A stretch of DNA of 21,634 nt from a virus: the IMG/VR virus record IMGVR_UViG_3300032087_004846, positions 1-21,634 of that record, one strand, 5' to 3'. The notes under the pieces were generated by a model that had not been told where the DNA came from, did no database searches, and was given only the letters and a program-made list of their open reading frames with translations. A program made the translations under genes and the position numbers. How positions within the stretch are numbered: the first letter of the stretch is position 1; every line of letters starts with the position of its first letter. Below are positions 3-1,636 of the stretch, in pieces.

Positions 3-173
3 TCACACTTTGTTCATTCCGATGAGGTGACGGAATCATGGAGAATTGTTGATGATCTTCTTTGCACTGGTGATTCTTGTCCTGTAAGAACTGCACCTTA
101 TATTTACAAAAAAGGTTATTGGGGCCCTTGGAATAAAGTAGAACAAATTACTAAATGGGATTATCCGGCATGA
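3..173 (+). CDS. zwf: Glucose-6-phosphate 1-dehydrogenase, C-terminal fragment (gene cut by window edge)
   Basis: Only the last 56 codons are visible; the gene begins upstream of the window. The frame opens at base 3 and ends with TGA at 171-173. The segment carries the C-terminal signature of G6PDH: FVHSDEVTESWRIVD, then PYIYKKGYWGP and a final W-containing tail, matching the FVR-DEVE-AW--VD and Y-AG-WGP blocks of bacterial Zwf. The enzyme oxidises glucose-6-phosphate to 6-phosphogluconolactone and makes NADPH at the entry of the oxidative pentose phosphate pathway. Zwf is a known cyanophage auxiliary metabolic gene, thought to pull host carbon into NADPH and pentose for phage DNA synthesis. 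Its stop overlaps the next start (ATGA). The identification rests on the C-terminus alone. Confidence 0.85.
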   Translation, partial: SHFVHSDEVTESWRIVDDLLCTGDSCPVRTAPYIYKKGYWGPWNKVEQITKWDYPA

Positions 174-322
174 TTGGGTTAGTCAGAAATGTAATGGAGA
201 CGCCAGCACTTTTAGGTGTTATGGCATTTTTTCTCGTCTTCGTTCCTATTTTAGGAATGTGGGCTGTACATAGATACAATTGGGAGCACTGGGAACCACT
301 TGACAAGTGGTTCAAGAAGTAG
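170..322 (+). CDS. Small single-pass membrane protein, 50 aa, unknown function
   Basis: The ORF starts at ATG 170, overlapping the zwf stop as ATGA, and ends with TAG at 320-322. The protein has a short N-terminus, one strongly hydrophobic stretch at about residues 12-33 (LLGVMAFFLVFVPILGMW), then a polar, Trp-rich tail with two WE pairs and the ending LDKWFKK. This is one transmembrane helix with a basic end, similar in size and build to the small subunits of thylakoid complexes, but I do not recognise it as any named Psb, Pet or Ndh protein. Translational coupling to zwf supports it being a real gene. Its 3' end holds the -35 box of the next promoter. Function is unknown. Confidence 0.6.
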   Translation: MIGLVRNVMETPALLGVMAFFLVFVPILGMWAVHRYNWEHWEPLDKWFKK

Positions 323-328
323 TATAAT
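300..328 (+). promoter_or_regulatory. Consensus sigma-70 promoter (TTGACA-17-TATAAT)
   Basis: TTGACA lies at 300-305 and TATAAT at 323-328, with exactly 17 bp between. Both hexamers are perfect consensus. The -35 box is inside the 3' end of the 50-aa membrane-protein gene. Transcription would start near 335 and run into the structured leader, the HNH gene and the tRNA. This is the form expected of a phage early promoter read by host RNA polymerase. Confidence 0.8.
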
Positions 329-443
329 TACTTTTGTTGAGACACAACTCAACTGCGACAGTTCCCTTTGATAGGTTCAGGACTGGCGGCGATAGGAACC
401 TATCACTCTACTAAATAATGGTAGATAAAGTTGTTCTACCGAT
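323..443 (+). promoter_or_regulatory. Structured 5' leader between promoter and HNH gene
   Basis: This stretch has no convincing ORF but holds three inverted repeats. GTTGAG 336-341 pairs with CTCAAC 348-353. GATAGGTTC 370-378 pairs with GAACCTATC 396-404, a perfect 9-bp stem with a 17-nt loop. GGTAGA 420-425 pairs with TCTACC 435-440 just before the HNH start at 444. No U-run follows any of them, so they are not classical terminators. The region could be a regulatory leader, a small RNA or an RNase processing target. The pairing is visible; the function is inference. Confidence 0.45.
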
Positions 444-794
444 ATGAAAACACATAAGTGTAGTCACTGTGGTGAAACTGACCCATCCAAGTTCTACGGC
501 CACAAAAAGAGTGTATGTGGTGAATGCCATAACAAATACACTCTTGCATTGGGACAGAAAAAACGTAAGTTTATTGTAGAACAGATGGGTGGTAAATGTT
601 CTGCTTGTGGATTTGATAAGTATCAATCTGCTTTACAGATGCATCACCTTGACCCTTCAACCAAAGATAAAGCATTTGCTTCTATAAGAGGTTGGAGTGA
701 AGAACGCATACTTGAAGAAATTAAAGGATGTGTACTATTATGTGCTTGCTGCCACGCAGCAGTTCATAGCGGTGAACTAACTCTCGGGGATTAG
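444..794 (+). CDS. HNH endonuclease, probably a tRNA-adjacent homing endonuclease
   Basis: The protein is 116 aa, small and Cys-rich. It has an N-terminal zinc-finger-like pair, C6xxC9 and C25xxC28, a second pair C52xxC55, then the HNH core: HHLDPSTKD from H67 and C100-A-C-C-H104 with a final H108. This is the common phage HNH type with zinc-stabilised knuckles, a DNA nickase or endonuclease often mobile by homing. Proteins of this type often have CANCH at the second half, whereas here it reads CACCH. The last codons and stop (792-794) lie inside the acceptor stem and linker of a tRNA-Pro gene, suggesting insertion next to the tRNA. No Shine-Dalgarno is visible, and a 6-bp hairpin ends 3 nt before the ATG. 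The family is clear; activity and target are unknown. Confidence 0.85.
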   Translation: MKTHKCSHCGETDPSKFYGHKKSVCGECHNKYTLALGQKKRKFIVEQMGGKCSACGFDKYQSALQMHHLDPSTKDKAFASIRGWSEERILEEIKGCVLLCACCHAAVHSGELTLGD

Positions 795-855
795 TAAAAT
801 GGTATCACGCTGCTTTTGGGAAGCAGAAACGCAAGTTCGATTCTTGCATCCCCGA
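785..855 (+). tRNA. tRNA-Pro (anticodon UGG)
   Basis: A complete cloverleaf can be drawn by hand. The acceptor stem is 785-791 with 848-854 (7 perfect pairs), discriminator A855. The D arm is 794-808, a weak 4-bp stem with an A-C mismatch. The anticodon stem is 810-814 with 822-826 (5 perfect pairs), loop TTTGGGA 815-821, anticodon TGG at 817-819 followed by G, as usual for tRNA-Pro. The variable loop is 827-830. The T stem is 831-835 with 843-847 (5 perfect pairs), loop TTCGATT. The length is 71 nt and the 3' CCA is not encoded. The first 10 nt overlap the 3' end of the HNH gene. Cyanomyoviruses commonly carry a few tRNAs. Confidence 0.93.
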
Positions 856-1462: not shown

Positions 1463-1636
1463 ATGGATATTTTTACCGTGCAAGAATGGGATGAAAAGTT
1501 TGATGAACTTTTTGCAAGAGTTGAAAATGGGGAGCATATTGGAATAATAAATGATGAAGGTAAAGCAGCAGTTATGATGCCTGCAGATGATTTTCCCATT
1601 GAACTATATAAAGATAATAACAACGAGGCCCCTTGA
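1463..1636 (+). CDS. Phd/YefM-like antitoxin-type protein, short (57 aa)
   Basis: The ORF runs from ATG 1463 to TGA 1634-1636. The sequence FTVQEWDEKFDELFARVENG, then EHIGIIN, a GKAAV block and VMMPADDF, follows the N-terminal pattern of the prevent-host-death/YefM fold: a first strand, an amphipathic helix ending in RVE-GE, then a beta hairpin ending in A-V-MP-D-F. In that family this part forms the dimer and binds operator DNA, while a C-terminal tail of 20-40 residues covers the toxin. That tail is almost absent here, and no toxin gene is adjacent. The stop codon lies inside the TTGACA of the next promoter, and the last codons form one arm of a 14-bp palindrome. Family assignment is by pattern only. 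Confidence 0.68.
   Translation: MDIFTVQEWDEKFDELFARVENGEHIGIINDEGKAAVMMPADDFPIELYKDNNNEAP

Follow-up and report, generated by a model that had tools for sequence, protein, structure and literature searches.

An HNH endonuclease reading frame that takes its stop codon from a tRNA-Pro gene raises the question of whether the two genes overlap by chance or whether the nuclease gene inserted at, and possibly targets, the tRNA. The frame lies in a virus record of 21,634 bases, analysed here at its full length (the window), whose features at this locus are collected in Table 1. The ORF list, Rfam, and ARAGORN agree with an earlier sequence-only reading that the HNH frame ends within tRNA-Pro(UGG) and shares 10 nt with it (785-794); ARAGORN called the tRNA at 784-856 with anticodon TGG, and tRNA was the sole Rfam model above threshold across the window. 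The HNH ORF has its own start, lies outside the other listed same-strand ORFs, and is not contained in a self-splicing intron or intein. Neighbours at the locus include the end of a dehydrogenase gene, the small phrog_1184 gene, and a 2OG-Fe(II) oxygenase gene (Pfam, PHROGs); in the related record L002, the dehydrogenase neighbour is glucose-6-phosphate dehydrogenase. Among named relatives of the region, Synechococcus phage SynMITS9220M01 gave the highest coverage, 40% of the query. A Phd-like antitoxin gene was also observed at window positions 1463-1636 (phrog_375, E 4.5e-10; Pfam PF02604 below cut-off).

Table 1. Features of the HNH-tRNA-Pro locus in the window.
Feature	Position	Strand	Remarks
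Small gene phrog_1184	155..322	+	PHROG match; upstream flank of the insertion site
Sigma-70 consensus promoter	300..328	+	TTGACA-17 nt-TATAAT, 12/12 match
Leader stem-loop GATAGGTTC/GAACCTATC	370..404	+	Belongs to the ancestral site and lies outside the cassette; stem shared with cassette-free L218, equivalent in L002; by eye
Inserted cassette	408..784	+	~377 bp: ~36 nt leader plus HNH ORF; right end at tRNA base 1
Late-promoter-like CTAAATA	411..417	+	One mismatch to cyanophage late motif NATAAATA
Hairpin GGTAGA (420-425)/TCTACC (435-440)	420..440	+	3 nt before the start codon
HNH endonuclease ORF	444..794	+	116 aa; stop TAG at 792-794; last codons and stop within tRNA-Pro
tRNA-Pro(UGG)	785..855	+	Rfam tRNA model, 61.8 bits; HNH stop at tRNA bases 8-10

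The predicted protein matched PHROG 2255 (HNH endonuclease; E 3e-25, residues 2-111 of 116 against profile positions 52-172 of 211), while its Pfam HNH match was weak (E 0.01, below the Pfam cut-off); the Pfam and PHROGs matches included HNH families in PHROGs and weak HNH in Pfam, with no GIY-YIG family among them. Residues C52, C55, H67, H68, C100, C103, H104, and H108 were invariant across 28 aligned sequences including that of the window, and dN/dS ranged from 0.04 to 0.33 in nine pairs, indicative of purifying selection. An AlphaFold model derived from 28 sequences reached a pLDDT of 93.8 and a pTM of 0.80. Foldseek matches to solved structures were weak (best E 0.09; best second-look Z 5.4), and many of the top ones were HNH or related nucleases (4h9d, Cap5, T4 endonuclease VII). 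The predicted fold is consistent with an HNH nuclease without amounting to proof of one. A close solved relative was also sought by sequence and rejected, as just two weak matches were returned, to a maturase reverse transcriptase (E 0.0033) and a cytochrome c family (E 0.03).

A protein scan of viral contigs yielded 39 close relatives with 75-96% identity to the window HNH, on contigs that are often near copies (44 contigs including the window represent 26 distinct HNH genes). All 39 abut tRNA-Pro(UGG), with the stop inside the tRNA in 37 and directly before it in two (L035 and L046, each with a TAA stop). Within this close family, the same HNH gene was thus not seen apart from tRNA genes, nor was the overlap peculiar to the window. 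A second, alignment-based scan comprised 80 loci, on contigs partly the same as those of the protein scan. Stops within tRNA-Pro were found in five of five members of a 68% identical group (L079-L083), in L086 (anticodon CGG), and in L089; distant members stop in tRNA-Lys (L104), tRNA-Asp (L118, L126), or tRNA-Ser (L131), others have a tRNA merely nearby, and no tRNA was called in the loci of viral relatives L102, L123, and L132. Contig L126 also encodes a second HNH-like ORF (1346-1810; CPNCHWEYD) that stops in tRNA-Arg, its query-related HNH being the one that stops in tRNA-Asp. Distant relatives in L103, L112, L115, and L128 overlap an opposite-strand tRNA-Ile, tail to tail. Salmonella phage Arash (GenBank) exhibits the same layout as the window, with the HNH stop in tRNA-Pro, and the HNH genes of PAK_P4 and Mendera end 39 nt inside annotated tRNA-Lys and tRNA-Arg, respectively; the PAK_P4 tRNA-Lys was not called by ARAGORN. 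Close HNH relatives were absent among 47 cultured cyanophage records examined.

In a comparison across 80 deduplicated loci, whose rows are not phylogenetically independent because the loci were picked by HNH similarity, a same-strand tRNA contained the stop of 43 of the 85 ORFs that a residue pattern marked as HNH-like, as compared to 5 of 661 other ORFs of at least 80 aa, a cut-off that excludes small genes. Six more of the 85 ended no more than 5 nt before a tRNA, as did 10 of the 661, and one of the five control ORFs stopping in a tRNA was HNH-like by eye. Chance overlap is ruled out by recurrence in relatives together with this control. Recurrence in many viruses suggests a selfish gene spreading by targeting tRNA genes.

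The sequence-only reading had pointed to related phages that carry the tRNA but no HNH gene as an informative comparison, and such cassette-free tRNA-Pro sites were found, revealing a discrete unit of ~377 bp. Exact patterns for two tRNA-Pro 5′ ends matched at least 128 places in viral contigs, some of them contigs of the protein scan; among the places listed, 38 carry a close HNH, seven another HNH (five distant; two unrelated, L187 and L217), and 83 none. A strict empty set comprised 81 of these 83 HNH-free listed places, each with at least 400 nt of upstream DNA. When 27 cassette contigs were compared with 85 empty flanks (HNH-free places and L002-L004, with flanks below 60 nt dropped), a homologous empty flank was detected for 20 (22-380 nt aligned) and none for seven. 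Homology broke 36-45 nt before the HNH ATG in 15 of these 20 and 177-274 nt before it in five. The window and cassette-free L218 are 86% identical over 148 nt up to a break 36 nt before the ATG, which places the mobile unit approximately at the cassette interval in Table 1; L039 and L134 are 90% identical over 380 nt, with the alignment ending one base short of tRNA C1 in the empty site. As judged from these alignments, a discrete unit containing the late-promoter-like motif, hairpin, and ORF is present or absent at the same site and ends exactly at tRNA base 1.

The tRNA-Pro of the window displayed no mismatches over 73 nt to those of cassette-free L253, L254, L256, and L258, and seven identical tRNA-Pro alleles of another tRNA type were shared between cassette-bearing contigs and strictly HNH-free ones. 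Because identical alleles occur in both states, insertion leaves the tRNA unchanged, and a protective base change in cassette-bearing tRNAs, considered as a means of self-protection, was not found. If the cassette-bearing locus is protected at all, the disrupted 5′ junction must provide that protection.

Window HNH DNA is 91 and 95% identical to that of L009 and L015, respectively, and the leader 89% identical to each, as compared to 62 and 64% for tRNA-Pro (shuffled tRNAs, 42-52%) and 46 and 41% for the next 80 nt upstream, which is shuffle level (43-52%). A cassette 74% identical to that of the window lies beside the window's tRNA type in L257 (three mismatches over 73 nt). In an HNH tree, the window is joined first by L015 (98/94) and next by L009 (100/100), loci with two other tRNA types, and a clade of the window and L257, with the same tRNA type, was rejected (p-AU 0.0046); L257 forms a long branch. 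Presence/absence polymorphism at one target site was observed across different backgrounds. On the minus strand of L244, two tRNA-Pro genes occur in one contig with a different HNH before each.

Distinct HNH groups meet at this junction. Among the at least 128 tRNA-Pro places, at least 45 ORFs of 80 aa or more, in 27 clusters, end between −12 and +60 of tRNA base 1. By phmmer, 20 clusters matched the window HNH at 1e-57 or better, five at 6e-11 to 2e-14, and two (L187, L217) not at all; PHROGs identified L187 and L217 as HNH by other families and L189, L228, and L236 as phrog_2255, the Pfam HNH match being weak or absent for these five. All 45 listed ORFs are HNH by phmmer or PHROGs, and their stops fall at tRNA base 15 in 42, at base 10 in one, and directly before the tRNA in two. 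Among the places listed, 12 of the 81 strict empties have an ORF of at least 40 aa ending inside the tRNA, mostly of 43-47 codons, and these look spurious. The earliest-stop frame is used in all 13 tabulated ORFs with a readable frame, from lineages that are not all independent; this earliest stop lies at base 15 on one tRNA type (10 of 13) and at base 10 on the types of the window (window, L257) and of L015, with L059, L035, and L046 standing outside these 13. The tRNA-coded C-terminal tails differ, reading GD, GM, RSIA, or HPSIA. On these comparisons, the cassette sits beside very different tRNA-Pro genes and borrows whichever frame stops earliest, leaving the tRNA intact.

A relative that interrupts the tRNA itself was found in vequintavirus 241Ecol014PP, in which a 353-bp HNH insert stands in place of exactly tRNA-Pro positions 26-32 as compared to rV5_ev146, a cassette-free phage with an intact tRNA-Pro. 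The coliphage HNH is 62% identical to that of the window, and the two phages match at 100% over the 109 bases before the insert and over at least 372 nt after it, from the T loop onward. The vequintavirus HNH is present in 14 phage records at 99% or higher. Ten of these, the MG0656xx records labelled Campylobacter phage, have it at 100% protein identity; this label is doubtful, the records probably being mislabelled or mixed assemblies. Split tRNAs as a general rule were rejected, as a scan of 26 loci revealed clear spanning tRNAs just in L007 and L098 and none in 22, with hits in L090 and L113 read as neighbouring tRNAs; the same scan of control ORFs returned 0 of 60. The proposal that the endonuclease targets or inserted at a tRNA gene divides into two parts on this evidence: insertion at tRNA-Pro with the tRNA staying intact is strongly supported by the empty sites, shared alleles, and intra-tRNA relative, while targeting by the nuclease, that is, homing through cleavage of tRNA-Pro, is the best inference.

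A single promoter had been proposed to transcribe both genes. The sigma-70 site exists, and related contigs show it ahead of tRNA-Pro genes that lack the cassette, which makes it probably a promoter of the tRNA itself; the cassette has a late-promoter-like motif and hairpin of its own; promoter-like sites in the window are no commoner than in shuffles (10 versus 9.7). A structured leader precedes cyanophage tRNA-Pro in the window (340-404) and in L002, L004, L218, and L220, with no Rfam match in the window; its stems in the window (GATAGGTTC/GAACCTATC) and L002 (GGTAGTTC/GAACTACC) differ by apparently compensatory changes, by eye. Relative to the cyanophage late motif NATAAATA as given in PMC2984593, most close relatives have CATAAATA or TATAAATA at the corresponding position, and [A/C]TAAATA lies 31-35 nt before the ATG in 21 of 21 distinct close-family elements long enough (L039 by eye). 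Across the window, the late-promoter core ATAAATA occurs four times versus 11.4 expected, always on the + strand.

The window hairpin folds at −8.6 kcal/mol (z −2.1). A GGTAGA/TCTACC hairpin 0-3 nt before the ATG is the longest stem in 20 of 22 elements (a 5-bp variant in L015), other stems being longest in L009 and L019. Among 17 distinct aligned elements, 97.5% of cells are paired as compared to 20-66% when the stem is slid, and no covariation beyond shuffles was detected (247/500). Inspection by eye revealed no clear Shine-Dalgarno sequence. In L079, L081, L082, and L035, TATAAATA lies within a longer hairpin just ahead of the start (z −4.9, −2.5, and −1.4 for the three folded), and the added N-terminal segment of these proteins is read as a helix-turn-helix. 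With T4-type spacing, the late start of the cassette would fall within the hairpin and so free the start codon. Contigs L030 (1366-1640) and L040 (1862-2136) carry a phage-encoded tmRNA of cyanobacterial type (RF01851; 99.9 and 101.8 bits) ending ~50 nt upstream of the HNH gene, the message of which would be left without a stop once the tRNA is processed.

Beyond viruses, among the best 80 of 288 bacterial/archaeal relatives (33-56% identity), a tRNA lies within ~150-200 nt in 35, a raw count without a random-gene baseline; six of these 35 stop inside the tRNA, one abuts it, three meet its antisense end, and 25 are near. The tRNA is further away in seven of the 80, and 38 have none in the fetched locus; these 38, with viral L102, L123, and L132, exclude a universal tRNA association. 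Chromosomal relatives in bacteria adjoin tRNA-Asn and tRNA-Arg. A wider HNH tree comprised 142 rows and 119 columns, with 71 of 138 inner branches drawn open; of the 80 bacterial loci, 16 that all lack a tRNA within 200 nt were left out of it. Isotype labels were assigned to 100 of the 142 rows from a tRNA within 60 nt of the stop or 250 nt upstream, those of L007 and L049 being set by hand and PAK_P4 (L048) being labelled by its upstream tRNA-Arg. The label required 26 changes on the tree versus 58.2 in shuffles (0 of 200 as low), a statistic inflated by near copies and obtained from partly hand-picked rows. Pro, Asn, Arg, and Ile groups stand out, and on this labelling the clades of phage and bacterial HNH genes follow tRNA isotype. 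The window HNH may be one tip of a large family of homing endonucleases specific to tRNA genes, spanning phages and bacterial chromosomes, with one isotype parasitised per clade (Pro, Asn, Arg, Ile) and repeated evolution of a tRNA-borne stop, such that RNase P maturation would remove the stop and throttle the nuclease; we put this forward tentatively, at somewhat less than even chances.

For the window itself, we consider it likely that a compact, free-standing HNH homing-endonuclease cassette has been spreading among phages by targeting tRNA-Pro(UGG) genes. The nuclease would nick or cut tRNA-Pro genes that lack the cassette, probably near the anticodon arm, the site of the insert in the coliphage relative, and repair of the break from a cassette-bearing genome would copy the cassette in, with the tRNA as right homology arm. 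The start-codon hairpin would hold expression back early, and a late promoter starting inside the hairpin would open it, an arrangement described for I-TevI, SegB, and MobE (PMC2988022). RNase P processing of the tRNA would take off the HNH stop codon, so that any one transcript could become a mature tRNA or serve as an HNH message with its normal stop, but not both; the earlier suggestion that processing of the tRNA would cut the end of the HNH mRNA is a plausible and attractive idea. The overlap is not essential, since two of the 39 close relatives end directly before the tRNA. Nor is a lack of self-protection fatal to homing, because SegB is reported to show no isotype preference and to cut DNA of its own locus in vitro (PMC13096335).

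The cassette might instead move passively, just through tRNA genes acting as recombination joints, with the nuclease having no role in its transfer. tRNA genes are described as co-occurring with non-syntenic regions of cyanophage genomes (PMC3037559), the tRNA does provide homology at the right end, and small non-HNH ORFs (at least 40 aa) end 0-6 nt before the tRNA in 6 of the 81 listed strict empties. Passive joints should carry genes of all kinds, however, and the 45 listed junction ORFs above the 80-aa cut-off, which excludes small genes, are all HNH; with the rarity of tRNA-borne stops among control ORFs, the conserved catalytic residues, and purifying selection, this renders passive transfer unlikely. 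The exclusive association of the close family with a single tRNA isotype would also fit a nuclease that acts elsewhere, on host DNA or a host tRNA-Pro or its gene, with the adjacent phage tRNA-Pro serving as replacement or antidote. Yet the coliphage relative breaks the phage's own tRNA-Pro, bacterial chromosomal relatives lie beside tRNA-Asn and tRNA-Arg, and PADLOC returned no match, leaving this the least probable of the explanations, and very improbable in itself.

A further alternative concerns the RNase P step alone and is compatible with homing: the junction leaves the ORF open into the tRNA, selection favours a prompt stop, and the overlap has no regulatory meaning. The relatives with TAA directly before the tRNA, the differing tRNA-coded tails, and use of the earliest-stop frame are all in keeping with this, whereas 37 of the 39 close relatives, and other HNH groups too, show the overlap even though a stop ahead of the tRNA is easy to reach; we lean slightly toward the absence of a regulatory role. 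If correct, the homing reading would offer one explanation for how phage tRNA genes come to be gained, exchanged, and disrupted, would tie in with tRNA-based anti-defence (from the SegB work), and would provide a case in which RNase P processing may control how much of a selfish nuclease is made.

Phage tRNA regions are already known to harbour homing endonucleases, as GIY-YIG SegB or as HNH genes noted in tRNA arrays (further background in PMC10448857, PMC7344957, PMC2988020, and PMC3185647). Added here are an insertion boundary, empty sites, clades that follow tRNA isotype, and the convergence of several tRNA alleles and HNH groups on a single junction; together they nominate the tRNA-Pro gene as a testable target. 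Among the top matches of a search of mainly open articles, without preprints, no published description of an HNH gene that stops within a tRNA gene was listed. In mycobacteriophage and mycobacterial tRNA arrays, HNH genes are reported as the most widespread coding sequences, in accounts whose relevant sections describe neither stop overlap nor isotype specificity nor empty-site mapping (PMC5966550, PMC6409571). As predicted for the cassette, I-TevI has a late-type motif set so that late transcripts should miss the 5′ arm of the hairpin, but it is intron-encoded and GIY-YIG, whereas the cassette has no intron, no clear Shine-Dalgarno sequence, and a putative promoter. The nearest precedents are Aeh1 MobE and T4 SegB. 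MobE and the T4 Mob endonucleases are free-standing HNH enzymes, MobE with a late promoter and hairpin, but the targets named for them in PMC2988022 are protein genes (nrdB, 39), the rest being listed there as unknown, with no tRNA among them. T4 SegB is a GIY-YIG enzyme inserted between tRNA-Arg and tRNA-Ile and, unlike the window HNH, does not end in a tRNA; like it, SegB is described as lying among phage tRNA genes, with a predicted late promoter and hairpin upstream, and as cutting within tRNA genes and favouring inheritance of the tRNA region (PMC2988022, PMC13096335).
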